Assembly (NCBI GenBank): GCA_963971425.1
Contig: OZ020518.1
Location: 1,872,263 to 1,936,262, forward strand
From: Bryoerythrophyllum caledonicum
Taxonomy: Eukaryota; Streptophyta; Bryopsida; Pottiales; Pottiaceae
Length of the DNA stretch: 64,000 nucleotides
Direction of reading: 5' to 3'
Part shown: piece by piece, positions 1 to 54,254 of the stretch
Layout: each line of letters begins with the position of its first letter
Numbering within the stretch: position 1 is the first letter of the stretch
Position numbers and translations under genes: made by a program
The notes under the pieces: model-generated
Databases searched by the model: none
Told to the model about the DNA's origin: nothing
What the model saw: the letters and a program-made list of their open reading frames with translations, nothing else

Positions 1-664
1 CTGTGAGTGTGTGTGAGTTTCTATGAGCACGTAGAGTCTGAAACGGCCGTGCGCGGAGGATTGACGTGAACAAGGAACAAGACTTGCAGCTATTTCAGTT
101 GGATTTCTCAGTTTTAAAGGTAAGTGCACTCATTCAGTCTTGCATTTCTTTCGATATTTGTGTAGTTTTGCTTTAGATCTGATGTCTTGAAACATTATGA
201 TAGCATTGCTTTTGATGTATGTGTGAGAAAATAGATGAGATTGTGTATTCAATGTGCTGGTTTGAATGTGGTGGTTTGAATGTGGTGGTTTGTGGTGGTT
301 TGTGGTTATTCGTCGTAGTTTGTGCTAGTTTAAATGTGCTAGTTTGTGTTGGTTTGAATGTGGTGGTTTGTAGTGGTTTGTGGTTATTCGTCGTGGTTTG
401 TGCTAGTTTAAATGTGCTGGTTTGTGCTAGTTTAGATGTGCACGTTGAAGTCAATGTTGTGGTTTCAATTGCTAAATTCAATGTGCTGAATTCAATGTGT
501 TAATTTCATTGTGCTCATTTCAAAGTGCTGATTTCATTGTGAATGATTTCAATGTGTTGGTTTCCATGTGCTACTGTGATTGATATTGTGTGTGTGGGTT
601 TGTTATTGTTGTTGCAGGACGTCTAGTTCCAGCAGAATTTGTCTGGGATTAAGGTTCATAAACC
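1..664 (+). other. 5' leader exons and first intron of the ParB/methyltransferase/HAD gene
   Basis: A non-coding exon appears to run to about 119, where AAAG|GTAAGT is a near-consensus donor. The matching acceptor, TTGTTGCAG, ends near 617, and a short leader then runs to the ATG at 665. The intron between them (about 119-617) holds a GT-rich minisatellite. The transcription start is not visible. This is inferred from splice consensus and from the downstream coding exons. Confidence 0.45.
250..440 (+). repeat. GT-rich minisatellite in the first intron
   Basis: Irregular tandem units of the type TGGTTTGAATGTGGTGG and GTGCTAGTTTAAATGTGC repeat about a dozen times. A larger block containing GTGGTTATTCGTCGT occurs twice, near 300 and 380. 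Both strands are open by chance because the repeat lacks stops. The conceptual proteins are low-complexity and are not credible genes. Confidence 0.8.
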
Positions 665-3600
665 ATGGCTGAAAGGTAAAATCCATGCTCTCACCCAAGA
701 GCCCTAAACCCTACAGCTTCAATATCATAGCACTAAAGAAGAATCTGCACAAACTGCAATAAATATGCTCTTCAATGAACACAGTTTAGCTCGAGTCGAG
801 CTAAAGTGGAACATCGATATTGCACTAATGTCCACACTTTAGCTCAACTCGAGCTAAAGTGGGCCTCCACTAAGCACTATTGTCCACACTATAGCTCGAG
901 TCAAGCTAAAGTAGGCCTCCACTGTGCACATTTGGCCACACTTTAGCTCGAGTCGAGCTAAAGTGCGCTCTCCAGCATGCTCTTTTGGCTACACATTAAC
1001 TCGACTCGAGGTAAAGTGTGACCAACAAAGCACGCTTGAGAGCGCACTTTAGCTCGAATCGAGCTAAAGTGAGGACAATACTGCACAGTGGAGGCCCACT
1101 TACGCTCGAGTCAAGCTTAAATGTACGACTAAATACGTCTTTGGTTGCGTTAAAGCCGGCTCCATCCAAAGAAATTAAATAAATTTCCAAAAACTCTCGG
1201 TCAAAAATGACATGACCTTCCAGTAAAGCCAGCACACTTTACCTCGAATCGAGCTAAAGTGTGAGACAATAAACATAAACAACAACTCAAACACAACAAC
1301 ATTCGGACTTTAAACATTCCAAAAGTATAGTAAACCAATGATATCGACGACCCAACTCATGTCCACTTCTTGTTATATTTTCACATGTGTGCAAGAGCTT
1401 CAGTCTCGCTTCAACCACTTGAGAACCTCAAAGAGTGAGGTTCGTGAGTGATTAAAGCGTGAACTGAAGCTCTTTCACAGTTCTGAGAGTTAAACGAGAA
1501 GTAGCCATGATTTGAATAAAAATGTATAGGAAAGTCGTTTGAATGAATACTGTAAGTGTCAGAACTGTTTAGCTATGCATTCCATGCATGAGCACTTAGC
1601 TCGAGTCGAGCTAAAGATGAAGCTAAAACTTGAATACAACATTGATACATTGGTGTAATTGTTGTCTCCTAACTCAACTCACGTCTACTTTTCGTTCACC
1701 TCTCATAAATCGTGCAAGAGCTTCAGTCCCGCTTCAACTACTTGAGAACCTCTAAGAGTGAGGTTCGTGAGTGATTTAAGGGGAATTGAAGCTCTCCCAC
1801 AGTTCTGAGAGTTGAACGAGAAGTAGGCATGAGTTGATTGTAAGCGTCTAAGAGAACGTTCTAAATGACTAAATTTTGTTGCAGAGTATTACTCACATAC
1901 TTGAATAACGGTACACTTTAGCTCGAGTCGAGCTAATGTGTGACCTCGCCGTCCTAATCGGATGATCATTAGAGCAATCTAATATCTTTGCTCTGTTTCG
2001 TGTTTGTGCAGATTTGAGAGGGACAAGATGGTGTCGCAGCTGCAGCACTTCTTCCAGCCAAAGCCTGTCGACGTTGACGATGACGATGGAGACGACAACA
2101 ACCACTTGGATTGCTGGGAGTTGAAGGACCCATCGATGACACTGAAATGGACGCTTCTGTGGGCGACCTATACGGATCATTTAGTGTTTGGTCAGACCTT
2201 CGCTAGTGCTATCGTCGATCCCCAGCACATCGACTTCAAGACCAGAGTTACTGATGTAGTCCACGAAGATAACGATCACGTTAAGTTGTCGTGTGAGACG
2301 ACCACTGAGTCCTTAGATCCGTATTTCTTTACTATTATAGTAAACAATAGTTCATCTCCCTTCTGTATCCTCGATTTAGTCGATTCTCTTAGGTCTTCAA
2401 AATTTGAGGAAATAGTGACTCAGGTCGAGCATGAGATCTCTCTTAAGAAATGGGAGACTAGTAGCAGACAACCACTGAAAGCAAAGGCTGTAGCTAATAA
2501 ACTGCGTGTCATTCTATCTAGAATGAGTACCTTTGCCGCTCTAGATAAGGCCAAGAATATCGCGGCAAGACGCCCGACAGAACTTTCAACGGTTTCGGGG
2601 GCCGTGACCGGTAGCCAGGACATGAGTCAAGCGTCGGTACCGGTTAGAACTCCAGGAGCGAGAACAAGTCGAAGCACCCTGCGCAACACGATGTCTGCTT
2701 CCCCCGTCAAGAAGCGCTCAGCTGCCAAGAAGCCGGAGACCTCTTCAAGAAAGAAGTCGAAGCTCGTATCAGAGGAGGAGCTAGCCAATTCGATGGCCTC
2801 TGCACTCTCGGAGCTCCCTAAGGCGCTCGGATACGGAGAGACAATCGACTACAACAACGTCCAACAGATTTACCGGAAATTCTGGACGGAGTGTCAGAGC
2901 TGCTTTTTCAAAGGCGACAAAGAGATGAAGATCGAGCTTGACGTCATGAGGTTGCATAATGCTCCGCCGGAGTGGACGATCCGTGCGTTCGAACCTCGGG
3001 GCATGGAGGAGTTGAAGCATTACTACCTCCAAATGCCAGACAAGACGTAGAAGTAGACTCTCTGCGTCATGCCGAAGCTCGACGCTATGTCGACGACTGT
3101 TGAAGAGCTCAGCGACTGCGACTTCTACATCATCAACGGCCAGCACAGCGTTGCTGCCTCAAAGGAGATGATTAACGGCAATGTTCCGGAGGTGATGAGA
3201 AGGCACTTCCGAACATGGCAATGTTACATTGTCTGGACGCAGGATCCGGAGAAGTTGAGGAAGATTTCCGCGAATTATAATCGCGTGAATCATTTGGTCC
3301 AGTTCAAGCCGACGTGGGCAACAAATATCCTCGGCTCTCGTGTTTTGTGGATCCAAGCTGGGAGACCAATGCCAAAGCACTCCGCCACAGGTGTTCGCGG
3401 GTCTCACAAGTCAGGTCGGAGAAAGGTAGCGGAGATTGCAAATGACAAGAGATTTGAGGTAATATATCTTAACTAATGTCATGCACTTTAGCGCGATTCG
3501 AGCTAAAGTGCAAATTTGCTCTGTATCTGTACAGTCATATGTATAGATAAGAAATCGTCATTGTCTGCTCATGGGTTGCAAGTTAGCTCGACTCGAGCTA

Positions 3601-6600
3601 ACTTGCAGTATTTGGACCCTACTGCACATGTTTGTATTCCTGCTTTATTGTAAACTCAAACGACCCTTTTATGTTTTGCGTAGCCATTTCTTAACGCGGT
3701 TTGTGAGCGCTTCGCAATGATCGACGTTGCGAAGAGCCAGGCGGCGCTCAAGAAAGCCGGGAAGGCGAAGGAGCTTTCAATTACGAACGAGGTGAAGATC
3801 ATCACCGCGACAGATGAGACCTTCAAGCTCTGGTCCGATGTCATCTCTTCTACGGCGCATGGCGACCTCATCAACGTGGATTCGACTTCGACGCCCTTGG
3901 CAAAGTTCAAGGATGCGAAGTCTTGGGTACCTGAGAAGGATGGGGTCCAGACGCGCGAGTTTTTCAAGTTTCTCGGCAACATGACCGAAGCCGATCACGC
4001 GAAAATGTGCAAGCACATTCTCAATCATTCAGGGCCATCTCGGATACTGCCCTATCCTAAGGTGGTTATCAAGCTGCCGAATTTTGTGCTGGAGGATTGC
4101 TATACAGCCCGGGACTGGGTGGATCGGAAGAAGAGGAAGGAGGTCGCTCGGATGGAGCTTCAACTGATCAGGCCGGAGCTAGCCTTCTTCAACAGCACTG
4201 GAGCGTACAGACGTTCAAACTGGCGGACGTTCAAGAAGAACTACAACGTCAGCAAGGCCTCAAAGCGTGCCCTCTTGGATTGGGGTCCACCGGATTCATA
4301 CTACAAGGATTCGAGACAGACGCAGTTTCGCAACTGCAAATGTGAGTACAACGAGTTGGCGTACTCCATGAATTTGAACGAGCTCCGGATGGAGTTCTTC
4401 ATCAAGGTCCCGGAGCTGTTCTGCAAGAGGGGGGATTTTGTTGTCCAGCTGTTTGGCGGGACGAAATTACTGACTGCGAGTGTGGTGAGCATCCTTGCAG
4501 TTTAGTTCGAGTCGAGCTAAACTGTTTATTCCCTTTCTGACTCGTGCATGGTTTCAATGAGGTCATGCCTATGCTGTTGGGTGACACTTTAGCTTGACTC
4601 GAGCTAAAGTGTCGGCTTTTACTTGTATGATTTTATGGATGTCATTAACTTCGTTCGTATCTTTTGAAGTTATAATAGCTGAGTTTTCGTACCAGCAATT
4701 GTTTGTAGTGAGTTTAGCTCGACTCGACCTAAATTGAATCTTGTTCAATCCATTCGTGTGCAGATGCTGGACCTGGAGGCATTCTGCATTTCTCACGACG
4801 CCAACAAGCAGGACCTCGACGACGCCTTTGAGATCGCCTTAACGTTGGATCGGGCCGATTTCGATATTTCTGCATATCACGCCAACTCGGAGATCTTCCC
4901 CGAGCTTGGAGATGCCGTTGGAAAGGAGAAGGGGAAAGCCATTGACCTCGGCGATGAGGAGGAAGATGCGGAGCCGAGCGCTGTGGTTGCGTGCCCGATC
5001 TCGAGCACCGTCACTCCGGATAATGAGTTCCAGGACGATTTTGTTGACGCTACTCCGCCTGAGTTTCAGAGTGCCTCTCAATCTGAAGCAAGAGACACAA
5101 TTGCATCCTCGCGACAATGACTCGACTTCCCGGAGTTGGATTCGTTGGAGATTTCCAACAGGCCTCATTCAACTCCCACCTTGGGCGCTTCAACCGCTCG
5201 TCCCGCGGCCAAGAAGAGGAAGGTTGCTAGCGCGAGCGGATGCTCTCCATTGGCTATCGCGAACAGCGCTCAGGCTGACAGCAAGTTGATCTCCCTTGAG
5301 AAGAAGCTCGAAGAGGAGGCCACCCGGATGAGGTTGATGGAGCAGCGGCTGGCGGAGCGCGACGAGGAGCTCAAGGATCTGCAGCGGAGGCGTGACGATG
5401 AAATGAAGAGGGACCAAGATTAGACGCATGCCGAGATGATGCTCATGATGCAGAGATTCATGTCGGCTAATTTGCCTACTGCCGCCACAACACCACCCGT
5501 AGTTAATGCTGCGATCCCCCAGCCTCCCACCTCACCAGACGGCGGGTCTGCGAGTCCGTCTCGTGATTTGCAGCTACCATATCTGTCGTATACCTCCCCC
5601 GTCTCCAATGGGACTCAATTGCTTCCTGTTCTCCCTTCCGCGTCGGCCCGCCCCTCCTCCCCTCCGAAGTCGCCCGATCGGGACGAATCTATCGCAGATG
5701 TCCCCAGGTCATCGTCAGGTTAGTGTGCGTAGTTGCGAATGTATATAGGCAGAACATTTTGTAAATGTCCAATTTTGTACTCCAGTATTTTTTTTGTTAA
5801 TATTACAGTGCACGGCGAGCACTTCAGCTCGACTCGAGCCAAACTGCTTGACATCTAATCACTGTGACTTGTATCCGTGTCCTCTATGCGCATCCTCTGA
5901 TAGGGTGAAGTTGTTGAATTTTTTCAGATCTAAGTTTCGGTGATGACGCGATTGCTCAACCAATCATAGAAGAGGTCGTCCAAACTGCAGTCCCAGTCAT
6001 AGAAGAGGTCGTCCAAGTTTCAGCCGTGCTCGTAGACGAGATCAATCATGATTCTGCTGTCCTGGAGCCACCTCTTCTTGTCCCAGAACCGTGCCCCCAA
6101 ATGGATGTCGGGCACTCCGGGCCCCTTGACAGCATGCAGGGTTCGTTGGGATCGATGGGTGCCCGAGACAAAATGCTGCAGGACGATGAAGTTCTCGAGG
6201 TATTCTTCTAACTCTTTTCGAACTCCACTCATTCCCCCATCACTCCTCCCCCCATTTATCTCTTTCGTTCCACGTATTCTTGATTCGTCGTTGTTAATGA
6301 ATTTGTAGTAATATTGGTTGTTCTCCTAGCGTTTCCGAACCAGGTCGGCGAGGCATCAATAAGTGGTGCCAGTAATCTATAAGAAATACCTAGAGTCCAA
6401 TCAGATATCGAGGGCAGGTGGTTGAACATTGTGCTGGACCTCAATGGGATTCTATGCACGTATGAGCCGTCGTGGCAGGCCACAGGATCCAGGAACTCTA
6501 TCCCGTCCATTCACTCGGCTTCGCTGCCGGCCGAAGTAGGCCCTAAACTAGTTCGAGTGCGCCCTGGTTGTGCTGAATTCCTTACGAAGTTGTCTAAGAT

Positions 6601-8252
6601 TGCCACCATCACGATCTGGAGTTCGATGATGGAATCTACAACGCGTCAGATATGTAATTATCTTTTTCAGCATAGTTCTTCGTACCCTCTCAGGATCTTT
6701 GGTCAGGAGAGTTGCGATAGGGTTCCCGAGCGTAGAGTCGGTAGCAGAGCAATCTACATGAAGGAATCTGGCACTCAGAAGGACATCTTCTTGAAGACCT
6801 TATCGAGCCATCTCTTCAATAGGTTGGGTCGTGAGTATACTTCGGCAAATACGCTTGTCATTGACGACAACCCGATTAAGCACATGGTCAATTTGCCGGA
6901 GAACGTCCTTCTTCTTCCATCATGGTCGCACAAACATGTTGGCGCGAGAGACGATTCTGTATTGTTGGAGGAATTACTGCCATTTCTCTCTGACCTTCAT
7001 CAGTTTCCAGGTGGCCTAGTACAGTACCGGGCCGAACATCCCTCTGGCCGGGAGATGTTTTATAATGATCAGAAGACGTGTGGTCAGTCTACGAGTATCT
7101 GGAATGCAATCCAAGCGTCTCAGAATCTCCGCTCTTAATGCCGTTGGGAACGCTTAGATGCCTTTCACACTTTAGGTCGGATAGAGCTAAACTGTATCGA
7201 TTGACTGCAGCTCGATGTTGTAAATTTTGTTGGACCATTTTTTGTGTATATTTTTTTTATAAATGAAATTGAGATATTTCACCGCTTTGTTTGTTGTGGG
7301 AATTGGATATCTACTGCTGATGGAATGTCGTGCTATTTTGAATGATTGGAATTTTCATCTATTGTTCTAAGGTATGTGAGTGTCGCTGTGGTTGAAATTT
7401 CTACAGGACTCTGACTGTCGGGCGTCCGTGAATTCCTTGCTAGGGCCAGAGGAATTCGTCCTTTCTCTTCGGAGTAAAGGGCTTTTGTTGCACTCTGCTG
7501 CAACCGCGCAATCAACCATGGATTATTCGACCGTGGCAGTGGACGACGGAGTTGTTGAAAGCCCTATTGCGCGGGAGCCAATTCATGATAGGAACAACTC
7601 ACCTTCGCCGCAGTGGCCTCGTTTAGTTCCTGGGTCCCCGCCTTTAAATCCGGATAATTGTACTCCAGCAAAGCGTATTCTCTACGACGATTTAAGGGAT
7701 GGTACTCCCCAACGCTCGCTTGCGGTGCGTGTTATGATGACCTCCAATTTATTGCACTATTGAGATGTTTTGGCCTAGACAATTTTGATTTGTTGTTGAG
7801 CTACATTGCACTAATGTAGTTTTGGTTCATTTGAGCTTGTTTTTTTTGTTGGAGGTTAAATGTGCTCTGTGGATCTTTCCTTCTTCATTTTAGCTCCATT
7901 CGACTTAATGTGCGCTAGGATGGATCTCAATGATTAAATTTTCATGTGTGTTGTGTAGGAGTATTCGACCTAAAGTGTATTTCTTTGGATTGTGTGTGGC
8001 GCCTATTGTGCAGGAACCATCCGGTAATGTCTCCGTCTCCGAACTTTGTCAGGAGATGCTACTAGAGGCAAATGCTCTCCTTCCCCCACCCGCCGGCACT
8101 CGCTACCCAAATCAAACAGTGACGAGGTGCGTAGGCGGGGTTTGCAGCATCTTCTAGAGAGTCCATTAATGCAAGAGAATGGCGCAACATGGACAAGGCA
8201 ACGTCAGAGGGCTTTTTTGAAGACCTGTATAGAGGCTTATGGTGGAACTCCG
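665..8252 (+). CDS. Composite ParB-like / DNA-methyltransferase-like / HAD-phosphatase-like gene, multi-exon, interrupted copy
   Basis: The start codon lies in an 11-nt exon (665-675, ATGGCTGAAAG). This splices in phase onto 2012, giving MAERFERDKMVSQ. Further exons are about 2012-3458, 3684-4484, 4764-5718, 5928-6199 and 6413-7138, then a tail at 7407-7724 and from 8014. Phases agree at the junctions from 665 through 6413. The join from the HAD exon to 7407 is not resolved, so two adjacent genes remain possible. AATAAA at about 8337 could be the polyadenylation signal. Exons are clearly richer in G+C than the flanks. The copy holds about four in-frame stops plus a frame change near the tail, so it is probably a silenced or dead copy. 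No exact family name is recognised. Domain details are given in the entries below. Confidence 0.6.
782..1261. repeat. Cluster of eight intronic 27-bp palindromes
   Basis: Copies start at about 782, 835, 887, 939, 992, 1045, 1097 and 1235. The consensus is a 13-nt arm CACTTTAGCTCGA, one central base and the exact reverse complement of the arm, with an XhoI-like CTCGAG at or near the centre. Spacing in the first six is close to 52-53 bp, so that part is also a tandem array. All lie in the intron between the 11-nt start exon and 2012. Transcribed RNA could fold into a 13-bp hairpin. Confidence 0.9.
1353..1514. repeat. 162-bp fold-back element, copy 1
   Basis: The two ends are inverted repeats of about 22 bp: CAACTCATGTCCACTTCT at the left and AGAAGTAGCCATGATTTG at the right. 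Inside, AGAGCTTCAG pairs with CTGAAGCTCT, and AACCTC pairs with GAGGTT at the tip. The whole unit can therefore fold as one long imperfect hairpin. It may be a fold-back MITE or a small-RNA precursor. Confidence 0.7.
1593..1940. repeat. Two more intronic palindromes
   Basis: Copies at about 1593-1616 (shortened arms) and 1914-1940 (full length, one arm mismatch) have the same CTCGAGTCGAG core as the upstream cluster. The second sits about 70 bp before the acceptor at 2011. Confidence 0.85.
1675..1836. repeat. 162-bp fold-back element, copy 2
   Basis: It has the same length and organisation as the copy about 320 bp upstream. Ends are CAACTCACGTCTACTTTTCG and CGAGAAGTAGGCATGAGTTG. The two copies differ by scattered substitutions, but the arms remain complementary. 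It lies in the same intron as the first copy. Confidence 0.7.
2012..3458 (+). CDS. Exon with N-terminal region and ParB/Srx-like 'NGQHS' domain
   Basis: The N-terminal half has an acidic run (VDVDDDDGDD) and then a stretch of unknown fold. A basic, serine-rich linker follows (KKRSAAKKPETSSRKKSK, about 2707-2760), which looks like a nuclear signal. From about 2955 the order is W-T-I-R-x-F-E-P-R-G, then a VMP segment, then FYIINGQHSVAASKEM (about 3123-3170). This resembles the ParB N-terminal/sulfiredoxin-like fold, in which D/N-G-Q-H-R is the core motif. Next come RTWQCYIVW and NYNRVNHL. The exon ends at GAG|GTAATA in phase 0. The ParB assignment is by motif recognition only. Family members elsewhere act as nucleases, NTPase switches or specificity modules, and which applies here is unknown. 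Confidence 0.55.
3484..3607. repeat. Two palindromes in the 3459-3683 intron
   Basis: The copy at 3484-3510 is near consensus. The copy at 3577-3607 is a perfect 15-nt inverted repeat around one base. Its outer arm reads TGCAAGTTAGCTCGA instead of CACTTTAGCTCGA, and the partner arm has changed to match (TCGAGCTAACTTGCA). Both arms have thus diverged together. Confidence 0.9.
3684..4484 (+). CDS. Exon encoding DNA methyltransferase-like core (beta-class order)
   Basis: The exon opens after a TTTTGCGTAG acceptor and reads PFLNAVCERFAMIDVAKSQ in the same phase as the previous exon. Two motifs stand out: LLDWGPPDSYYKDS (about 4273-4314), like the DPPY catalytic motif IV, and further on KRGDFVVQLFGGTKLLTAS (about 4425-4481), like the S-adenosylmethionine-binding motif I (G-D-x-V-x-x-x-F-x-G-[ST]). 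Motif IV preceding motif I is the beta-class order of amino (N4-cytosine/N6-adenine) DNA methyltransferases. The exon ends at GTG|GTGAGC, splitting motif I from the next strand. The catalytic loop is DWGPPDSY rather than DPPY or SPPY, so activity is uncertain. Confidence 0.5.
4498..4735. repeat. Three palindromes in the 4485-4763 intron
   Basis: Copies lie at about 4498-4524, 4585-4611 and 4711-4735. The first has CAGTTTAG...CTAAACTG, a paired substitution relative to CACTTTAG...CTAAAGTG. It begins only about 14 bp after the 5' splice site. Confidence 0.85.
4764..5718 (+). CDS. Exon with end of methyltransferase fold, NLS and coiled coil
   Basis: After a GTGTGCAG acceptor the frame continues MLDLEAFCISHDANKQDLDDAF, which fits the strand and helix that follow motif I in amino methyltransferases. 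An acidic linker follows. Then comes ARPAAKKRKVASAS (about 5194-5235), a textbook monopartite nuclear signal. The next segment is charged and heptad-like (about 5281-5420, LEKKLEEEATRMRLMEQRL) and is a likely coiled coil. The exon ends in proline/serine-rich sequence at TCGTCAG|GTTAGT (phase 1). This suggests a nuclear, possibly oligomeric protein. Confidence 0.5.
5820..5846. repeat. Palindrome in the 5719-5927 intron
   Basis: CACTTCAGCTCGA with partner TCGAGCCAAACTG. It is recognisable, but the arms have drifted. It is the only copy in this intron. Confidence 0.75.
5928..6199 (+). CDS. Exon with repeated IEEVVQ segment
   Basis: The exon starts after TTTTTTCAG and keeps phase 1 (GAT-CTA-AGT). 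It contains a short internal duplication encoding VIEEVVQ twice (about 5965-6020), followed by acidic and proline-rich sequence. It ends at CTCGAG|GTATTC in phase 0. No domain is recognised. It links the methyltransferase part to the phosphatase part. Confidence 0.45.
6413..7138 (+). CDS. HAD-superfamily FCP1/NIF-type phosphatase-like domain
   Basis: The frame reads WLNIVLDLNGILC (about 6419-6457), then VRVRPGCAEFLTKL, then ITIWSSMM, and near the end NTLVIDDNPIKHM (about 6850-6888). These are the four HAD motifs in FCP1/SCP order. The nucleophile Asp is kept, but the second Asp of the usual DxDxT is Asn (DLNG), as in several plant 'DLNG' NIF proteins. Motif II is W-S-S and motif III is V-I-D-D-N-P. 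A phase-0 join to the previous exon is possible if the acceptor is ATATCGAG|GGC. FCP1-type domains dephosphorylate serine/threonine, classically on the RNA polymerase II tail. The target here is unknown. It could instead be the start of a separate gene. Confidence 0.6.
   Translation, partial: GRWLNIVLDLNGILCTYEPSWQATGSRNSIPSIHSASLPAEVGPKLVRVRPGCAEFLTKLSKIATITIWSSMMESTTRQICNYLFQHSSSYPLRIFGQESCDRVPERRVGSRAIYMKESGTQKDIFLKTLSSHLFNRLGREYTSANTLVIDDNPIKHMVNLPENVLLLPSWSHKHVGARDDSVLLEELLPFLSDLHQFPGGLVQYRAEHPSGREMFYNDQKTCGQSTSIWNAIQASQNLRS
7168..7977. repeat. Degenerate palindrome copies near the 3' end of the gene
   Basis: Weak copies lie at 7168-7194 (CACTTTAGGTCGG...AGAGCTAAACTG) and 7886-7912. A half-copy lies at about 7955-7977 (TATTCGACCTAAAGTG). 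They fall in the gap after the HAD exon and in the 7725-8013 intron, so they too avoid coding sequence. Confidence 0.6.
7407..8252 (+). CDS. C-terminal tail exons of the composite gene
   Basis: Exon 7407-7724 follows a TTTCTACAG acceptor and reads DSDCRASVNSLLGPEEF onward. It ends at CTTGCG|GTGCGT in phase 0. The next exon begins about 8014 after ATTGTGCAG with EPSGNVSVSELCQEM. The tail is readable in two overlapping frames: one stops at 8157, the other ends EAYGGTP at 8252, so one small indel is likely. Composition is serine/proline-rich with no recognised domain. Confidence 0.35.
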
Positions 8253-8379
8253 TAGACCATTTGATTAGTGATAGGACGATTGTGTTTTGCCTCGGGGTGA
8301 ATGAGTGTTGTTTGTGATTTTTTTCATGAAGTTTTAAATAAAGCTTGGAATAATGGTACATGCTTCTTTTAGCGTTACC

Positions 8380-8871
8380 ATTGTTTGGGACATTCGGCTA
8401 ATTTGGTCCATCCATGTAATGAAATATAGTATTCTTGGTGCATTGTCGATATGCTTTGCACCTACAATTGTCTATATATATTGATACTTTAAAGATTATA
8501 TATCTTCAAAATCATGGAAATCTCCCATTATAACGAATATGGTGTTACAACCCTTCCCTGTGAAATTGTGATAGAAAGGTGGATACAATCATTTTGATTC
8601 TAGTTCAAAATTGGTTCTTGATTTAACATCTTTTCAATAAAGACATGTAATAATAGTAGAGAGCTTGAGTCTTGAGCAAGGGATAATAAAGGGAGTATCA
8701 AAGTAATCTTATTGTACAATAAAAGAATTTCAAATTTGTATTCAACTAACTCCCATACATTTCTTATTCCATTAACCTTGGTATAAATCTTTGAAGACAT
8801 TTTATTCTAAATGTATGAAATTGAGATTAATTTATAGGATGCCTTAAGTTACCACCATAAGCATGGTGAAA
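8380..8871. other. AT-rich intergenic stretch
   Basis: Nothing is recognised beyond AT-rich sequence downstream of the composite gene's likely polyadenylation site. Confidence 0.6.
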
Positions 8872-10899: not shown

Positions 10900-13800
10900 A
10901 ATCGACCTCGTTGGATTTGCCCGATTGGCCGATTGATATGCCAAGGATCAGACAACCTGCACCTACAAAACCATCGAACTTTGTAGTCCATCGGTCATCA
11001 CCTCCGACTAGCACAGATCCAACCACAACCGCCCACATAAAAAGGCGTCGCCGATGTCAACATCGCATCATCAACGACACTCTAACATGTCATCATTGGC
11101 TAGCACAGGTCCAACCACAACCCCCCACAACTTGTTCGATCCTCGGCATACCAGTTGCTAAACGACGACGTCCGCTGTCGCTTCTCCTTTGTCTAGGTCT
11201 GGAATCGGAACCGCCAATTGGGCAGGGAAATGCACCTAGCCCGTCGTAAAAACCTGTTTCGCGCGACATGATGGAGATTGTCCTCGATGTCGTCAAACGT
11301 GCCCACATCCCAAACTCAAAGCCTACGATCAGAATCCAATGCCAAAATAGGCTCAGAAGCATCGTCAATATCCAACCGTGGCCCAAAGTCTGTGGTGGAA
11401 GCACTCTCCGGGTTTGAGGCCAATGCCACGTCCACACCTTTGGAGCAGTCCCCCGGAGATCAATCGTTGATCTCTGGAGTGGCTTATTTGTCTAACGTTG
11501 CAGCATGGTTGGTACGGGAGCGACGCAATGTGCATCGTAGGGTGGTACGTTTGGTGAATGACGATGGAGTCATCATGGTTGGTCGTACAAACGGCAACCC
11601 CACTCGAGCTACCCCCCTACATGTTATATTGGACTTCGGATGTCAACCAGTGATGATTGGCAAGCAGCTGGTCCACGATTTGAGTCTAGGTGCTTCGGAC
11701 CTCGAGCCTTGCCCATTTACGATTGTTACATCGGTGGGGGGCACGGAGAAGGCCATGGGCTACACCTGACTACCGTTATAGTTGATGATCGGCGTGGGAT
11801 ATGGTCCTCTGTTCTCCCACCTATCTCTCTAGTGCGTTGTGATTGGTGCCACCAACTACGACATTCTGGTGGGTGAGCAGGCACTTTATCCACTCGGTTT
11901 TGGGGTAGATATCTGGACGGTGGAGGCTTGGATTAGGCCTGGGTGTTGTGCCGGTAATGGCAGAAAAGAGCTCATTCTGGTTGTCTACGCAACTAGCGCA
12001 GTAACGTTTACGGCGGATGCTATGTTTGGGCACGGTGCCTTGGCATCCAGTTTACCGTGTGCTTCTACGCTTTGGATGAGACATATGCTTTTATGTTGAG
12101 GGTAGCGGAATCACATGAGCGCATATCAATGGAAATCCCTGCATGTCATTGCAAGGATCCACTTCTTCCATGGGGGATTCTGTTGGAGCTCACTCGTCGC
12201 AGTCGAGAGATTGTGGACGCTATTGATGCTTCACAGCTTTCAGTGGATTCTTCCACTCCATTGTTGGCTCGCACTATCCAATGGCGGCCACCGAATGAGG
12301 ATATTACCCTCGTGGAGCTCCACGAGGGTAGTATTGATACGGAGCTCGCGGTTGTATTAGAGGTTGGGCTCAAGGTACGGCAATACATTGACGTGGATAG
12401 TGGCTTTGCAGCCAACCGCGCCGCTCACCATCACATTCAGCGTCTTTTGGCATTGTATTTGGAGCAACTACCACTTTTTTCCATTCTAGGTGTTTTGGCA
12501 AGTTGACACGTGATGTGACGTTGATCTGTGAGGATGATCTGCGCCGATTAGGTCACGTGGACTTGGTGATTGCCGGATGGCCTTGCCAAGGCCAATTACG
12601 GGTGGGGAGTGGACATGGCTTGGATGATCAACGATTGGATGTCTTTGCAAATTTGCTCAGGCTCATCCGATGGTGGACTACCCACCTATCCACGCCACCG
12701 GGGTACATTTTTGAGAATATATCTCCATTGAGAAATACACGGACAAAGGTGCGTGAGGATGGGGCATACATCCATCACCTTCTTGGTCCCCTTACGTTTG
12801 TAGATGTCGAGGCGTTGGGCTCTTACGCCCATCGCCGATGTTGGATTTGGACCAACATGGCATCATCAGCAACGCTCACCTCTTAAGCATTTTCTACAAT
12901 GCTCTTGCTCAAGTGCAGCGGCGCGTGCGTAGTGTTGACCTCAACACTCTTGTTTGATATTGTGGCCTCTGTTTTGCCATTCAACGCCGTTTTGTTGACC
13001 ATCCACGCGCGCTGGGGACAGACTCTGATGGTCAAGGGGCAGCAGTGCCTCATCTCACAGAGATCAAGGAAGCGGAGTTGTTTTTTCATTTAAAGAGGCA
13101 CGGAGCTGAGGAGCTTTATGCTCAGTGTATCTTTGCAGCTTTGGCCTACGACTTTGGTTGAGAGGATGCCGAGATATCTTTTCCCGGTTCTATCATCAAA
13201 ACACGGGATTTTCTGTGGATTCCCTGAGTGAGGAGTCAGGAGGCATGAATGACTTCTCTGCTACTAAGTAGCAATCACCAGCCGTGCTGATACGCGGTGA
13301 GTCTTCTATGGTGGAGAAGGAGACCACGGAGTTTCATGATTGGCCTTTGGATTTGGGGCCATATCTTACCGGTACTGAGGTACGAAGGGTTCGAGCGTTC
13401 ATACGTTCATATCGTAGTTGTTTTGCCTTTAGTCTCTATGATTTGGAGGGCTACAGATGCAAATTGATAGACATCTAATTGGAAGACGACCACCCAATCT
13501 TCCAACGACCGTACAAGCTTAGTCTTTGAGAGAAAGTTGGGGTTTAGACTCGTTGTCAGCAGTTGGTGGCTGACACTTTGATTGAGCTCTCCAACGGCAA
13601 ATACTCTTGTGCCACAGTTATGCCATTGAAGAAGAATATCTTTGGCAACTGGACGGGGAAACGGATGTGTAGGTACTAGGGATTATAGGCCAATCAATCG
13701 CAAGACTAAGTCGGACCGATATTCCATGCCCATGATGGAGGAATTGTTTGATGCAGTGGGCCACGCTAGAGTATTTAGTACTCTAGATTTGCGGTCTGGT

Positions 13801-16760
13801 TACCACCAGTTAGTAGTTACCATTGATGGTGGATGACCGAGTGAAGACTGCATTTTGAGGATTTGATTAGGATGGGAGAGATCAGCTCTATCATTGAAAG
13901 TTTCTCCCATTTGGCCTCAAGAACGCACCCACTGAGTTTCAGAGGGTGATGGACCAGGTGTTGACCGGTTTACCGTTTGTCTGATGCTACATTGATGATG
14001 TTATCATTTTTAGTAGCCCACAGGAACATGTGAGGCATCTTCAGGCGATGTTCGAGAAATTATGGTAGTAGTGATTGCGTTTGCACCATGGCAAGTGCAA
14101 GTTCTTCCACAACCGATTGCCATATTTTAGACATATGATTGTTCCAAGGGGTCTTGGCGTGTAGTAGGCCAAGGTGGATGCGTTGCAGAAGATTCCTGCC
14201 TCAACCGATGTGTTATGGCTTTGAGCTTTCCTTGGCTTGGCGAATTACCATCGCCAATTTGTCAAGAACTTCACACCACTGGTTTGGCAAGAGCTGAGCT
14301 GTTGACAATTCTCACGGGAAAGATCAACCATGGACTTAGGGACGAGAGCAACAGTAAGCTTCTGCTACTTTGAAGCTGAAGCTCAGTTCAACACCTGTGC
14401 TGCAACGTCCGGATGCTACACGACCCTTTCAGTTGCACAGAGATTAGAGTGCTCTAGGATTGGAGGTTGTGTTGACTTAGAAGGATGACAAGGGACGGGA
14501 GTACGTTGTGGCGTTCATTTCTTGGAGCAACAACAATGTGGAGTCCAACTATTCGTCCTATGAGACGGAGGCCTTGGCTGCAGTTTGGTCTTTGGGCCAT
14601 AGCCCATTTTAGGCCCTATTTGTATGGGCAATGTTTTACATTGGTGACCGACCATCAGCCTTTGAAGTGGCTCATGGAGTCTGACAAACTTACTTGCAAG
14701 TTTGTCAGGTGGGCTTTGTTGCTTCAAAAGTATGACTTTGAGGTTGTACATCGGACCGGCATCACAAACTTGGATGCGGATGGTCTATCTCGCAATCCAA
14801 GTCCCTTGGAAGAGGATTTGATTGGTGCCAAGTGGCAATGGGACTGTGACAGGGAGTTAGTCCTAGGGTGGCATGCAACGGCTTACCTCACAACGATGTC
14901 TGGCTACGCATCGACGTTGCCTGATTTGATAATGGATGAGGAACCAAATAGGGCCCTAGTTGTTAGCAATGTGTGGGAAGACGGTCCAGTCTTGCATAAG
15001 CTACAACACAAGACACTTCCCCCACCTCTTTCTAGTATGGAGCGTGATAGAGTTGGGCACCGATTAACAAGGTTCTGTTGGAAGAACAACCTTCTATTTT
15101 GGGTGTGGCCGGATTCGACTAGGCGCATAGTTTTGAGGCCAAATCAGAGGTCTTTGTTGGTACGACAAGTACACGAAGACCTACGACATTTTGGTGTGCG
15201 ACAGATTAATTCCATGTTGTGCAGCCAATACTGGTGGACCGACATATAGTAGCAAGTCGCCTCGTATGTTTCTTGGTGTGAAGTAGGTAAATGGGTTAGA
15301 TCCAGCTTTAACACCTTGTCACCACAGTTGAAGCTTTTGCCCATTATGAAGCTAGGATATCGGTGGTCTTTGGACTTTATTAGTCCATTTGCCGTGACTC
15401 CACGCGGAGCCAAGTATGTCTTGTTGATGGTGGAGCATTTCAACAAGTAGATTGAGCTCATCGCTCTTCCGCACAACTCTTCAAAGTTGGTGGCCATGGC
15501 ATTCCTCGACCGGGTGTTGGCTTGTTTTAAAGCCCCAGCTGAGGTTTGGACGGTCAACGGGCGTGTGTTCCTTGGGGCTTTCAAAGCTTTGTATACCAAG
15601 GCTTTGATTGACCATTGTACGACTTCTCGGGATCACCCAGAAGCGAACGGTTTGGCAGAGCGTGTGGTTCAGACCGTGAGGCGGGGCCTACAAAAGTGTG
15701 GAATACTTCAAGGTAGCCACCGTGATTGGGATTTGATGATACCATGGATCGCCTTGGAGTACCGGTTTAGTCGGCAGGCTTCACTAGCTGCTTTCAGTCT
15801 GTATCAATTGTTATACGGGCGGAAGCCAATTTTACCGAGTTCCGATCGGAAAAAGATGGCTCCGGTTGTGGATTTGGACAATCCGGAGGTGTGGGCCTAT
15901 TGTCTATGGGATTGAGCGGAGTTCTTCAAGCGGGCCATGCCCATGGCTATGGAGAACTTGTCCATCGCTCAATACTGTGACACCTTACGATACGCTCATA
16001 TTTGTAGCGGTGCCTACCGACCTCATCTACGACGTTTTTCCTTTGGAGATTACGTTTATTTGCAGTGTGAGGCGCCCACGACATTCGACGTCAAGGTTGG
16101 GCGCACCATTCTTTGCGTGAAGGATGTGTTGTCTAGTGGCATCTTGTTGCTGGAAGGCAAGGATGGCCGAGAGTGTCGAGAGCACTCTAAGAATTGTGCT
16201 CCCTGCCATTTTCTCACTAATGGCCCCCCATTCATCCGGAGTTGGCGGTTTGTGCCGTACGGTCTTCCGTGTTTTGTGTGTGGTAAGAAGAAGGGCGCCG
16301 CTATCATGTTGCTTTGTGACCATTGCTAGCGTGGTTGGCATATGGTTGGCTTGACGCCGCCTCTTTCTACTCTACCGCCCAGGGATTAGACTTGCCCTTG
16401 TTGTCAGAGGTCTTCGAGCCACGTTTCATCCAATGAAACAACTTGAATTCCTCGTGGACTTGTCTATGTGTGGTACGTTGCCATCCAGTTGGAGTTTCTG
16501 GATTTGATTTAGGGATAGGGAACGTGGAGATTGACCAAGGGTTTAGCAACAAAGTTGCTAAAGGCGATTAAAGATGGGCTCACATTGCACCCGACCTACC
16601 CTCTCTTTGTTACTTCTTCATATGCTTATTGATTCGGCGGCACACAACATCTTCGACTTCATGCGTACCGTTGTTGCAGCAACATCACCGTGGCGTTAAG
16701 TCTTGTTAGTGTTGTATGGTCCTAACGGGATAGAGGGTCTCTTTATCTGCTAGGGGGGGC
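10900..16760 (+). mobile_element. Broken Ty3/gypsy LTR retrotransposon fossil with DNA methyltransferase and PHD-like domains
   Basis: Parts in order: a gag-like region with little similarity left (about 10910-11500); aspartic protease-like sequence (about 11600-11760); a C5-cytosine methyltransferase domain (about 12290-13000); reverse transcriptase (about 13640-14100), with the LDLRSGYHQ signature; RNase H (about 14500-14800), with TDHQPLKWL; integrase (about 15130-15910); and a C-terminal Cys/His-rich PHD-like finger (about 16260-16410). A purine-rich tract at about 16755 could mark the start of the 3' LTR. The element is heavily broken, with well over ten interruptions, and its LTR pair is no longer recognisable, so it is old. 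A methyltransferase inside a Ty3 polyprotein is known from charophyte retroelements. Confidence 0.85.
12290..13000 (+). mobile_element. C5-cytosine DNA methyltransferase domain inside the Ty3 fossil
   Basis: A motif I-like segment with VTLVEL-type spacing and a following 'Y-x-D-V-D' strand is seen at about 12300-12410. Motif IV is unmistakable: LVIAGWPCQGQ at about 12560-12592 carries the PCQ catalytic cysteine. A motif VI-like PPGYIFENI lies at about 12697-12723. It sits between protease and reverse transcriptase. It is part of the broken element and cannot be read as a host gene. Confidence 0.75.
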
Positions 16761-41620: not shown

Positions 41621-43321
41621 AGTCCAAAAAAGAAGCCAATCCTGACCCACCCTCCCGTGACATCCGTCTACATGAAAAAAAGAACCCATGGAACCAGGCA
41701 CCCGGGGCATCAAAACACAAGATGTCCGCTGGTCGCCTCCAAGGGCTGTCTGCCGTATTCACCTGACTGGCACCTGACGGGCACTTGGCAAAAGAACCTT
41801 TTCCATTATTAGATGCTCCATTCGACGCAAACCCGTGAAATTGATGCTTGGGCGTGAAGGCAAAGATATGGCATCTTCAATGCACTCCAGCAGCGCTCAC
41901 AATCATTGACCACCATTCACCGGTCACAATGGATCCAAACTGTGGAGAATATCCAAGTGCGCGTGTGGTGTGACCCTCGAATTAGACGCTTTCTCTGCAT
42001 TGGATTGCAATGGGCAACCCACCCATCTCTCTCACGAGCGAACAAGCTACCAATTCTCCATCCGAAAACGGGAAATCAACCCGGACCAACTGCTGCAAGT
42101 TGCACCGCCTTACGACCGTCGCTCCTCAGCCAACCCCGTTGCTCTTAACCCTCCAACATCAGTTGTTGCTATTGGTGGCCACAGTATTCTACTTGTATCA
42201 TTGGTGTCCTATTTGAACATCATGAGGTGGAGAAATTGAAATGGCCTCCAAATGAAAGATGCTGGTTGAACAATCTTCAATCTAAAGGTGTAAGTCTTGT
42301 TATACTCTGAAGGGTGTAGTTAGTTTTAAGTGAGGCGTACATCATCAATTGTAGAATAATAAATTGGCAAATTTGTTCTTTTTACATATCTCACTTATGT
42401 TTGTTTCCTACTGAATGTTGATGCTGACTTTTACAACTGTATCATACACCAAGCTCAGGCACATGTGTGCGGATGAGCCTGCATTGGGGCCCCAACGATT
42501 GGAGGTGGGCCCCACTAATCAAAAGGTAAATATGGATAGAATTTTAAAATTATAAATTGGTTCCCAGTGTAAACGTGCTGGGAACACTTTGGAAATGGGG
42601 GAACAACATAGGAACTCATCGGGAATGCAATGGGAACGTAGTGGTAACAATATGGTTAAGAAGGTAAATCAGAAGAGGGTAACTTAATGGTTTGGTTAGG
42701 AATCACATCAGATTTTACCATGAAACTGGTGTGGGCATGAGGAGCCCAACCCGGACTTTTGGGGACCATATGATGAAGCCCCATATGATCGTCATGTGCT
42801 TCTACTTACCAACTGTTCACATACAAACCAACCGTACTAAAGGGCAGATGCGCAGCCGATGTCTTGGCTTTCCGAGCCGCACTTCCAGGAACCTCGAATC
42901 TAAAAGTAGAAATGGCCACGGTAAATTGCAACAGAGGCAACCACCGCAACTTGGCGATGATTCCCGGGCGCTGCATAATTGTTATAAATGCCGTCATAAA
43001 GCTGGGAAGCTGGCTGCTTGTCGCGCTTCTTCGCTGATAACTGGGTGATATTCTTGTGATAACCGTTATGATAGCTTCGTGATGCCTGGGAGATACCCAG
43101 GTGATAATTACAAGCAAAGTTGTCCTCACTTCACATCGGAGTGACTTTCCGAATTGGGACGAATGGTGATGGCTCGTTTCATGCACTTGAAGTAGCGATG
43201 GTGGCTTCGAGAGGTGGATTCTGCTCGAGAGTTCGTTCGGTGATGAGAGTCGTAGGGACCGTGGTTCCGGAGAGTAGTTTGTGTGTATAGTTTGCTGTTG
43301 AGGTCACGTCTCGACGTCGTG
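41621..43321. other. Region upstream of the PIN gene
   Basis: It contains a decayed relative of the CCCTTACACGTCAG family (about 42150-42330: GGTGGCCACAGTATTCTAC, GAAATGGCCTCCAAATGAAAG). Past 43000, G+C rises toward the PIN start, so promoter and 5' UTR probably lie there. No TATA box is convincing. Confidence 0.45.
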
Positions 43322-46300
43322 ATGTTGTCCGGGGCGCAGTTCTACGATGTGCTGTGCGCGGTGGTGCCGCTGTACGTGGCGCTGTTCCTCGGGTACGGCA
43401 GCCTGAGGTGGTGGGGGGTGGTGACGCCGGAGCAGAGCGCAGGCGTGAGCCGCTTCAACGCGCTGGTGGCGATGCCGACGCTCATCTTCCAGATCATTGC
43501 GTTCAACGACCCCTACACCATGGACAACAGCCTCATCGCCGCCTACTGCCTCTCCAACGCCGTCATCCTCGGTAGTTACTGGTGCACTACTGGACCGCTC
43601 TGAGACTGCACTTTAGGTTTACTAATTCTGGAACAGTTTGCTTTTTGCAGTTGGCTTGTTTGCATGGGCGTGGGGCACGAAGCGCGGCGACGGGCTGGAC
43701 TGGGTGATCACGCTGTTCCAGTGCGCGGTGATGCCCAACACCATCATCGTGGGGATTCCGGTGCTGTCGCCGCTGTATGCCATCACGGGCCCTGGGATCG
43801 CCGCCATCTTCATTGGTCAGGTGCTGTGGATATACCCGGTTTTGTTCCTGTATGAGCTTCGGGCCGCGAAGAAGCTCGGCCAAGGAGTTCTGTCCGCTGC
43901 GCAGAATGCCGTGGCGGCGCCTGTAATCGGTCATCCTCATGGCCAGAACGGTGTCCCAGGTAAACAACTTCCTCATACTCAATCATGCAACTTAGCAACC
44001 CCTCGAGTCCAGGCTGTGATCCCAATAACCCTGCTTAGTCAGGAGACAGATTATGGACCATATCAAGCGCTGCTTGCATAGCCAGGAGAGAGATCCTGGA
44101 CCATAATCAGGGGCTGGTTGCACAGTGAGACTGATTATGGACCCTTACTCCAAAGCAGGCGTTTGATTCAGGACTCATCTTGCCTGCCACCTCGACCCCG
44201 ATTATGGACCATAATCAGGGGCTGCTTGCATAGTCAGGAGACAGATTATGGACCATATCAAGCGCTGCTTGTATAGTCAGGAGACAGATTATGGACTATA
44301 ATCAGGGGCTGGTTGCACAGATTATGGACCCTTACTCCAAAGCAGGCGTTTGATTTAGGACACTTATCTTGCCTGCCACCTCGACCCCTATTATGGACCA
44401 TAATCTTCCTGCCACCTAGTTACAGCCATGTCTTGCATGGCTGTTATTTTGCTTGTAGGTCATTCATGACGTGCGCTTACGGTGAACGAATTATTCAAGG
44501 GTCATGGAAGAAAGGTAGCATACCCTGGAAACATGTGTTTTTTATGGAATATGATGTAGTCTGGCATTTCTGCAGTTATGGGACACTCCCTGGCAAGAAA
44601 CCTCGCCCTCGCATTTAAAAGGGGCGGGCCCTCTGAGCCCTGCGGGCCGGATCTCTTTATTGACCCTGCTCGAGCATTGCACCAAACCTCAGCCTCGGGT
44701 GGGTCCACTTTTCTGGCCCTGCCCGTTTTAGGGTCCTAGAGGCTTTTTTTGGCTTTTTTTTCAAAATTGGAGCTGCGGCTTCAAATTACCTTCAGCTGCC
44801 TCCTCTTGGATCAAATAGGGCCCCCCTCCAACATAAGTATAGGGGCCGGTTTTGTCCCTACCCTCCCCCACCCTTCCAAGCCTGAGGCTTGCTGCAACGC
44901 TCGACCGGGGTATTTAGGCAAATATGTGTGGGCCCTCCTCCAGCCCTGTTTCTTAATTTAGGGGCCCTCAACAATTTTTTTGTAACCAGAGACCCCTAAA
45001 CAACATGTAAAGTTTTTAATTTTTTAATTTTTATCAACAATCTAAAAATAGGGGTATATTTGCCCCACCCTTATGTGAAGGTTTGTGTGCGCTGGAATAC
45101 AGCGTTGGTGGCAGAAGTGGAGCATGAGGATTGCCGTGTAAAAATTGGGGATGCAAGAGTGGCGACAGGAAGCAATGGCATTGCAGATTTGGCCTCCGAG
45201 GCTGACGTAGCGCCGTTGCCAGTGAAGAGGAAAGAGATGGCAATTAGAGTGGGCAAGCAAATGGTGTGCCTGCCGATCACTTACTCCACTTTTCTGGGCA
45301 TCATTTACTCGCTAATTGCCGGCAGGTAATATACTTCCTATCCCCTACTATCTTACAGTTGCAAGAAATTTCCTAGTTTTCATGATTTAGTTCTATCAAA
45401 CACGTTGGGAATTTTGGCGGCTTATATGCACTTTAGCATTCAGAAAAAGCCAAAAGTTTAGAAGTTTGTGAAAGTTGGCCCTGTTTTGATGAGGTTGCTA
45501 TCCAAAAAAAAGGTGGTGCAAGTTGGGAAGGATTTAATTATAATAAATAATATTTTTTTTAGGTGGAGAGGGCTGGTAATTTCTTGGATACTTCTATAGT
45601 TGACTCATGTAAAGATGGGCCTTGGTTTCAGGTGGGAGTTTGGACCTCCTCGAATTTTGCAGAATTCCCTGGACATCATTGGCAGAATTACACTTGGCCT
45701 TACCATGTACACTATTGGTGAGAACATACTTTCCACTTTGTTTCAATTTTGGAGCACCAGTTTCATCTAATATGTACTAGGGTTGGATATTTATTTATAC
45801 GCCGGGGATTGCTTTTCTTTACATGAGACATGATTATTTATTTTAAATGAATTTCCTTCGTGAAGTTATTTTTGAGAGAAGTAAATATCATAGCTTTTTT
45901 AGATATTATTGGTTGATGTTTAAACCCACTAATATGCTAGTGCTCATTTATGGGATGTTTGGCTGCTCAGGGCTTTTCATGGCAGGCCAAAAGAAGTTGA
46001 TAACGTCATGGTGGGCTGCATTTTATGGAGCACTTTGCCGTTTTATTCTGGGCCCCGGTGCAATGGGTCTTGCATCCTATTTACTAGGACTACGTGGTGA
46101 TACCTTGCGATTTGCAATCTTGCAGGTTCGTGGTTATTTAATTGTACCATGTAATGAAATAAAATTTGAAAAATCATTTAAAACGAAATGAAATTATATC
46201 ACAAATAGAGTTAATACTAGAGTTTTCCTGAAAGTCACCAAAATACACTGGATAGGTACCCCAAATCTTAAGGTCTTATGTTAGTAACCGGGACCACATG

Positions 46301-50100: not shown

Positions 50101-50173
50101 GAAAGTGGGGAGAACTTGTGTACAGTGTAAAGGTGGAGTGTCGAAATTGTAGAGTCCCCATTTATACTACGTA
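47110..50173. other. Intergenic region downstream of PIN
   Basis: It starts with the PIN 3' UTR. A possible spliced segment on the minus strand at about 48386-48494 is bounded by TTTTCAG and CACCAG|GTCAGT. Its longest frame (ACGCC...; MTFAAEAIVQVIIPSL) shows no known domain. No other gene is recognised. Confidence 0.4.
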
Positions 50174-50389
50174 CACTAAAGATGATATTTAGTGTAACCA
50201 TACTAATGTTTTTGGTAATGCAATAACTTTTTACTTTCGAAGAAGATTTTTACCGAGGGCACAACTATCAATACTATCTAAAGAGAGTGATCATTGTCAA
50301 CATAGTTGGTAAAAACATTCATCAAGGGTAAAAACTTATAGCACTTTTAAACAAATTAGTGTGGCTAGCACTAAATATCATCTTTAGTG
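50174..50389. mobile_element. TA-flanked MITE with hairpin ends, copy a
   Basis: It begins CACTAAAGATGATATTTAGTG and ends with the reverse complement, with TA on both sides. Each 21-bp end is itself a hairpin (CACTAAA-GATGATA-TTTAGTG). 216 bp. Confidence 0.85.
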
Positions 50390-50819
50390 TAACTTCTAAG
50401 AGTAACAACATGCGCCAACACATGAGCCAACAGGTTTTATGTTGTAAGTTACGTGACAATATCACAGAAAAGGGTGGTGCCATGTATAGTACAGTGGCAA
50501 GCAGAAATAGTCGTAGAAGAGGAGGTTTTTTGGAAAATCAGCTACCAAATCTACACAAACTCTCATAAAATAGCAAGAATACAACCACAAGCGCATATAG
50601 TTGCAACAAGCATGAAGAACAAGGTTTTCAGTGAAAATATGAATTAGAATAATACATAATAATTCATATGTGCAACAAGCTTGTACAATTGCTTGTACAG
50701 TCCCTATTTATGCTCAAATTGATTTTTATTGCACATCAAGTTATCAACCATAGAAAACAACACTATAGAGTACTAAATACCTTTACAACTCAATGATTCA
50801 ACTCATGAGTCATAAGCAC

Positions 50820-51297
50820 TCACAAACACTACCACCCTTTGTAGCCATCTTTTGCTTGGTATACATCAAGAGCTCTTTGAGGCATAGAGCGTATCAACTT
50901 CTTAATAACATTAGGCTCTATATTGTACCAAATTTCTTGGATCTTCTCCCATAAGTCAATTTTACCGGTGGGTTTTCTCTTAGACCTTCTCAAACAATGA
51001 TCTACTTCATTCCAAAGATCTTCTATTGGATTGAGGGCGGGTGATTGTGGAGGGTGTCCAACAAGCTAAACTTTTTGAGCACGCAATTAACTAATATACA
51101 ACATAATGTGGAATATGCTTTGGATCATTGTCATGTTGGAAAATAACCTCAACCTCTTCTAAACCTTGCATCTGTATGTAGTATAGTGCCCATAAGTTCC
51201 GCCTCGAAAATGTTGCAATGTACATATTTATCCATCTTCTCTTTGATTGGATGAAGCTTGCCAACTCCTTCCCAACGCATACAACCCCAAACCATTA
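50820..51297 (-). pseudogene. Tc1/mariner transposase remnant
   Basis: The minus strand reads VMVWGCMRWEGVGKLHPI near 51200-51290, and further on FQHDNDPKHIPHYV near 51120. These are the MVWGC and DNDPKH signatures of the DDE transposase. A SPALNPIEDLW-like segment follows near 51010. The remnant contains stops and frame breaks, and the N-terminal half is missing. MITE copy b begins immediately upstream of the VMVWG codons (51300), so the gene was cut or captured there. Confidence 0.75.
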
Positions 51298-51299
51298 CA

Positions 51300-51513
51300 C
51301 TAAAGATGATATTTAGTGTAACCACACTAATGTATTTGGACATGTAATAACTTTTTACTTTTGAAGAAGATTTTTACCGAGGGCACAACTATCAATACTA
51401 TCTAAAGAGAGTTATCATTGTTAACATAGTTGGTAAAAATATTCATCAAAAGTAAAAATTTACAGCACTTTTAAACAAATTAGTGTGGTTAACACTAAAT
51501 ATCATCTTTAGTG
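51300..51513. mobile_element. TA-flanked MITE with hairpin ends, copy b
   Basis: Same orientation and about 95% alike to the copy at 50174. 214 bp, with TA on both sides. The transposase remnant lies between the two copies. Confidence 0.85.
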
Positions 51514-51523
51514 TAGTGTTAAT

Positions 51524-54190: not shown

Positions 54191-54254
54191 AGTATTCTCT
54201 ATCGCTCATATTTGAAGTTAGAGTCCTCTACCTTACACACTTGTTTCTAGATAT

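Follow-up and report, generated by a model that had tools for sequence, protein, structure and literature searches.

The closest described counterparts of the locus studied here are the VANDAL21 and VANDAL6 elements of Arabidopsis with their VANC proteins; the VANDAL transposase is of the Mutator type. In En/Spm (CACTA) elements, TNPA binds subterminal repeats; these elements have CACTA ends and 3-bp target-site duplications (TSDs), and their sites are subterminal. ParB-parS is a bacterial partition system with palindromic sites. For VANDAL21, the accessible part of the literature reports that VANC21 binds a short motif in introns and in intergenic and terminal non-coding parts, not in exons, and that the motifs have grown by tandem repeat formation (PMC5735166). 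The motif is described there as non-palindromic, 9 bases long and repeated in a single orientation, with rapidly diverging target regions (PMC5735166; PMC10398659).

We analysed a 64-kb stretch of DNA from the moss Bryoerythrophyllum caledonicum (the window) that holds an array of palindromes in the introns of one gene. Judged by the accessible parts of the VANDAL/VANC papers, the two systems share a family-specific short motif in non-coding DNA, including introns, with exons spared, a transposase (presumed here) accompanied by an accessory gene, and motif growth by tandem repeats. Here, in contrast, the motif is a 27-bp palindrome that is one and the same even in strongly diverged relatives, and the element carries a DUF7869 gene and no Mutator-type transposase; no VANC homology was seen. 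If our inference is right, the locus works like VANDAL/VANC, but it is not a member of that group. Among the matches listed in a literature search on palindromic motifs in transposon non-coding DNA, VANC is the sole comparable case in the accessible portions of those papers.

A giant transposon with two genes

The accessory gene and the palindromes belong to a DNA transposon with terminal inverted repeats (TIRs) and 4-bp TSDs. The element is 18,047 bp long and runs from -9500 to 8546 in window numbering (G000:C6:1862762-1880808); its right part, delimited by comparison of extended copies, occupies positions 1 to 8546 of the window. The left end, AACACCATATTCGTTATAT.GGGAGATT, lies outside the window at about -9500 (read in L030), and its complement forms the right TIR at 8519 to 8546 on the minus strand. 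In two copies the TIRs are 28 to 29 bp long with one or two mismatches. TSDs of 4 bp, ACAA and ATAT, are present in both copies read at both ends; one end or none was reached in the remaining copies, and the TSD count rests on these two. Two features of a cut-and-paste DNA transposon, TIRs and a TSD, are thereby found. Many element-specific motif copies and two genes are shared with En/Spm, whereas here the ends read AACACC..GGTGTT, the TSDs have 4 bp and the sites extend through introns and the centre of the element.

Genome-wide, the end pattern (≤3 mismatches) occurs at 1,311 and 1,299 places, 2,610 together, against 0 for the control, and at least seven pairs of opposite ends lie 16.1 to 18.4 kb apart among the roughly 100 exact places listed. 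These 2,610 end places correspond to approximately 1,300 element equivalents. The family may thus make up about 5% of the genome if most copies are full length, and how it is controlled would then be of consequence to the host. Twenty palindrome-bearing stretches were examined; two of them (L005 and L006) lie around the window itself, and each of the remaining 18 can be aligned, fully or partly, to the gene with its flanking DNA at 67 to 96%. A short run of the telomere-type repeat TTTAGGG is located inside the central part of the element (L005, 3737 to 3813); like a PIN-type open frame elsewhere in the window, it would suit a plant host.

The first gene lies left of the window, at about -8510 to -5746 on the minus strand, and matches DUF7869 (E = 3.3e-43). 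From its place and copy number, we presume it to be the transposase. Nothing besides DUF7869 scores above the Pfam cut-off in this gene, with weak helix-turn-helix matches falling below it (E = 0.14 to 0.18). The domain is hugely amplified: there are 3,611 candidate places in the genome, and many of the 150 that were scored hold open frames of approximately 1,066 to 1,092 residues. None of the 14 control genomes gives a signal for DUF7869, and the papers searched for DUF7869 contain no mention of the domain. Similarly, the accessible parts of the Sola/Academ and moss transposon literature gave no name for a superfamily placement among the matches listed.

The second, accessory gene was read from its splice signals on the plus strand, at 665 to 7138, as six exons and five GT-AG introns (676 to 2011, 3459 to 3683, 4485 to 4763, 5719 to 5927, and 6200 to 6343). 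Exon 1 (665 to 675) provides the start codon and exon 2 (2012 to 3458) contains an NGQHS stretch; they are followed by exon 3 (3684 to 4484), exon 4 (4764 to 5718), exon 5 (5928 to 6199), and exon 6 (6344 to 7138). The window copy has stop codons in exon 2 (3048 and 3054) and in exon 4, and about 567 bp are absent from its exon 3 at 4345 relative to relatives; since 567 bp is a multiple of three, the reading frame is kept across 4345. Exon 2 is free of stop codons in 3 of 18 copies (L008, L018, and L021). Among these three its dN/dS is 0.16 to 0.20, a value that picking stop-free copies favours being low, and exon 2 is under purifying selection in intact copies. Genome-wide, there are 1,660 candidate places for the exon 2 piece (150 scored) and 564 for the exon 3 piece (40 scored).

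The exons sum to a protein of about 1,600 residues with a CTD-phosphatase-like domain at its C terminus. This NLI-interacting-factor (NIF) domain is encoded in exon 6, at 6386 to 7135 (Pfam PF03031, E = 2e-18), where it carries the motif DLNG. HAD phosphatases carry DxDx(T/V). In all 11 rows that cover the motif, of 14 rows, it reads DLNG or DLNE, with N replacing the second Asp; because DLNG/DLNE stands in place of DxDx(T/V), the domain may be inactive. No phage relative of the phosphatase part was found at E = 1e-3, and no PDB chain matches it at 1e-3. Only NIF scores above the Pfam cut-off in the accessory pieces, and no DNA-binding domain does; exon 2 has helix-turn-helix matches below the cut-off (E = 0.025 to 0.14).

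Placement of the palindromes

A scan of the window at ≤6 mismatches identifies 18 matches to the 27-bp palindrome CACTTTAGCTCGA-N-TCGAGCTAAAGTG, all within 782 to 7912, with no further match in the rest of the 64 kb. A half-site on the plus strand at 7967 to 7977 belongs to a degraded 19th palindrome. These results bear out a sequence-only reading of this DNA, which had counted about 19 copies at 782 to 7977 and none elsewhere in the window. The first seven palindromes (782, 835, 887, 939, 992, 1045, and 1097) form one tandem array in intron 1, at 782 to 1123, with a step of 52 or 53 bp; their number varies between relatives, and the array probably originated by tandem duplication. Intron 1 contains three more, at 1235 to 1261, 1592 to 1618 (with a right end, AAAGAT, found in relatives too), and 1914 to 1940. 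In intron 2 are those at 3484 to 3510 and 3579 to 3605, the latter with the matched variant arms CAAGTTAG/CTAACTTG. Intron 3 holds palindromes at 4498 to 4524 (matched variant arms CAGTTTAG/CTAAACTG), 4585 to 4611, and 4710 to 4736 (two forms among relatives), and intron 4 holds one at 5820 to 5846. Two weaker palindromes lie directly 3' of the stop codon (7168 to 7194) and in the 3' non-coding part (7886 to 7912). The arms are fully complementary in three of the 18 (939, 1045, and 3579), and 8 to 12 of the 13 arm positions pair in the other 15. Two copies of a foldback unit, each about 160 bp long and 322 bp apart, also lie in intron 1, at 1353 to 1871.

No palindrome overlaps an exon of the predicted gene model (0 of 18), and 16 are located in introns 1 to 4 (10, 2, 3, and 1, respectively), with none in intron 5. 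The avoidance of exons noted earlier is thus confirmed. The palindromes at 7168 and 7886 lie downstream of the stop codon at 7136 to 7138. Start positions wholly outside exons make up 32% of 665 to 7138; with the tandem array counted once there are 10 independent placements, giving p of about 1e-5 for exon avoidance. Half-sites (≤1 mismatch) number 42 in the window copy of the element, and just two of them fall outside palindromes, suggesting that half-sites are retained in pairs.

Beyond the left edge of the window, the element contains 11 more sites at ≤6 mismatches: three about 500 to 650 bp from the left end (-9003, -8931, and -8859), four upstream of the DUF7869 gene (-5505, -5303, -5256, and -5210), and four in the central non-coding DNA (-3034, -2965, -1293, and -1224). 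Sites are therefore present on both sides of the opposite-strand DUF7869 gene and in central intergenic DNA. A second element copy has a similar layout, and a solitary half-site lies 62 bp inside the left end, at -9438. The sites near the left end (-9003 to -8859) and this half-site would suit a role in transposition, in which the DUF7869 protein (the presumed transposase) or a TNPA-like helper assembles a transposition complex on the palindromes and chromatin control plays no part; the weak helix-turn-helix matches in the DUF7869 gene fit as well. However, most sites are intronic and several kilobases away from either end. The listing includes four DUF7869 places on C1 at positions below 28.95 Mb, and it shows no perfect palindrome within 20 kb of any of them; at one of the four (L043), the palindrome is also missing from the 1.9 kb upstream of the DUF7869 gene. 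Families could differ in motif, though. We consider such a transposition complex unlikely.

A genome-wide search of 437 Mb in 894 contigs with the 23-bp core (≤3 mismatches) found the palindrome at 11,463 places, against 1 for the reversed control pattern. Ten perfect-core places listed singly or in small clusters were examined with 2 kb each. All ten are embedded in, or flanked on both sides by, sequence related to the element at 64 to 79% DNA identity. One site at each of these loci is biased because the loci were chosen for a perfect core; further sites there are unbiased. Across 11 loci (those ten and L013), seven hold exon-matching stretches, with no listed palindrome inside them. At L037, L038, and L042, protein identity is 52 to 62% and a palindrome of the same sequence is still present. 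Within related copies, palindromes occur at the same positions. Since they sit at the same places in copies and all ten tested places outside the full copies are in relatives of the transposon, the palindromes have spread with the transposon, contrary to the earlier suggestion of a miniature mobile palindrome.

Alternatively, the transposon might carry many sites of a host-encoded factor, such as a plant transcription or silencing factor, consistent with element proteins that have no DNA-binding domain above cut-off. Such a factor would be expected to have sites in host genes, though possibly weaker ones, whereas all ten tested places belong to the transposon family, and we regard this explanation as extremely improbable.

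Conservation and symmetry of the sites

To compare copies, a change was scored wherever a cell differs from the site majority, with 30 + 30 bp around the arms as flanks. The fuller count, in which diverged rows are kept, covers 18 sites with 4 to 18 rows each, window included. The seven tandem-array sites were left out of this and of the count without diverged rows because their correspondence between copies is unclear. In the fuller count, the arms changed in 201 of 5,563 cells (3.6%) and the flanks in 1,648 of 12,721 (13.0%); without diverged rows, the values are 171 of 5,302 and 1,237 of 11,880. Half-site positions 4 to 10 change in at most 3.3% of cells. The sites at -3034 and -2965 (4 rows each) are less conserved than their flanks in the fuller count, as are those at -8931 and -3034 in the count without diverged rows. 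Of the cells with a majority CpG, 39 of 325 changed inside palindromes, compared with 71 of 197 in the flanks (26 of 275 and 83 of 234 in an earlier row set). Pairwise comparison of L008 with L021, in the rows without diverged copies, gives 16 changes in 260 arm cells and 107 in 569 flank cells, at an exon 2 dS of 0.57. The copies are related, and the cells are accordingly not independent. The palindromes are conserved above their surroundings and, as judged from these alignments, their sequence is kept under selection.

The arms also remain alike. The arms of the palindrome at 3579 are unchanged in 13 of 16 rows, and in 12 of 12 in the alignment without diverged rows. At four sites with matched arm deviations from the consensus, these deviations changed in 5 of 140 cells; consensus positions changed in 126 of 4,865 and unmatched deviations in 56 of 343 (3 of 138, 91 of 4,600, and 59 of 340, respectively, in another count). 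Paired changes in both arms had been claimed previously. Between sites they are clear, the matched variants at 3579 and 4498 being kept in relatives; within orthologous sites, we count six compensatory double changes in 2,781 cells, along with 179 one-sided and five double non-compensatory changes. Shuffles give a mean of 2.0 compensatory doubles and a maximum of 5, and none of 500 reaches 6. A single event probably underlies two of the six compensatory doubles (3484 in L012 and L024), and the rows are related, so that the figure is a weak excess above shuffles and not a probability; without diverged rows, there are two compensatory doubles against a shuffle mean of 1.4. Changes of the centre base go to the complement in 22 of 42 cases.

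Our interpretation is that the DNA itself forms hairpins in which one arm serves to correct its partner, and that this acts in addition to selection on the DNA site; were the site bound by a symmetric dimer, the arms would be held alike all the more. The earlier proposal of selection for the fold, or of a process that copies hairpins, is in this respect upheld in part, at the DNA level. Carried to its limit, hairpin-templated correction would make the palindrome a functionless mutational relic that travels with the transposon copies and owes its lasting symmetry to correction. The centre-base changes, the compensatory doubles above shuffles, the stability of matched deviations, and tandem growth at 52 to 53 bp are all compatible with a relic. 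Correction keeps arms alike, however, and not the base sequence, and the TTTAGCTC core recurs at unlinked sites and in relatives at 52 to 62% protein identity; exclusion from exons likewise argues against a relic, which we judge quite unlikely.

One-sided changes in the transcribed gene bear on whether the palindromes act as RNA. On the sense RNA, 24 of them give G.U and 24 give A.C (19 and 12 without diverged rows); an RNA stem should show a preference, and the equal numbers in the fuller set indicate no preference for the RNA strand. Hairpins in intron RNA, serving splicing, nuclear retention, or as small-RNA precursors, would agree with the location of 16 of the 18 sites in the introns of one gene and with the stability of matched deviations, and they are kept as a rival on account of the weak compensatory excess. 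The lack of strand bias lowers them as the main reading, as do the sites that lie next to the opposite-strand gene or in the intergenic centre of the element, and the conservation of the bases themselves, beyond pairing. We therefore find little support for the splicing or RNA-structure signal suggested earlier and hold RNA hairpins to be very unlikely. Taken together, the conserved arms, the absence of strand bias, and the flanking of an opposite-strand gene speak more for a DNA site with symmetric arms, one that probably serves a dimeric protein, than for an RNA signal in the introns.

A possible platform for an element protein

Our preferred explanation, held tentatively and at close to an even chance, is that the palindromes make up a set of internal DNA sites, specific to this family, arrayed across the non-coding DNA of a giant two-gene transposon and used for self-recognition or regulation through a dimeric element protein. 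Each palindrome would be bound as double-stranded DNA by a two-fold symmetric, presumably dimeric, protein encoded by the element. The likeliest binder may be the accessory protein, although the sub-threshold helix-turn-helix matches in both proteins do not discriminate between them. Dense binding over the non-coding DNA could mark copies of the family and keep them transcribable or regulate them, amounting to self-recognition and possibly anti-silencing, by analogy with VANC proteins on VANDAL elements, while hairpin-templated correction would probably help to hold the arms alike. The reading of the array as a landing platform rests on sites that are conserved, exon-free, symmetric, and kept in relatives at 52 to 62% protein identity. 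Against a protein, the matched deviations, centre-base flips, and compensatory doubles also fit protein-free hairpin-templated correction.

A more specific version is possible but doubtful: independently evolved self-recognition and anti-silencing, in which the accessory protein with its CTD-phosphatase-like tail binds the element's roughly 30 palindromes, over half of which lie in the introns of its own gene, so that the protein would both shield and fine-tune its transcription. Should the array prove to be a binding platform, the VANDAL way of working would have arisen twice, from unrelated sources: through motifs kept in introns and spacers, a transposon would recognise and regulate itself and leave other parts of the genome alone.

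Of the three options offered in the sequence-only reading, a binding site for the encoded factor fares best, with indirect support from selection on the sequence, but its ParB label does not stand. The palindromic sites resemble parS, and the NGQHS stretch had prompted the comparison; here, though, thousands of sites occur in a eukaryotic genome, and neither family matches nor folds support ParB. No ParB family was found in Pfam at E ≤ 10, no informative PHROG was recovered, and no ParB structure appeared in a PDB profile search, whose match to a peptidase over 48 positions (E = 0.012) is probably due to chance. A single-sequence fold (pLDDT 36) is too poor to inform. Of 30 pattern matches in viral contigs, none was confirmed as a relative.

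Elsewhere in the window, a second palindrome type, CTACACTAAA-N7-TTTAGTGTAG and variants, occurs several times at 50171 to 57711, often 195 to 196 bp apart. With ≤3 mismatches allowed, the genome contains 10,499 such places, whereas the control gives 26; the copies are possibly parts of another transposon group. Open frames resembling those of LTR retrotransposons occupy 11000 to 16400 on the plus strand; within them, the stretch at 12401 to 12883 resembles a cytosine-5 DNA methyltransferase. An open frame at 43256 to 43600, also on the plus strand, resembles a PIN auxin carrier.
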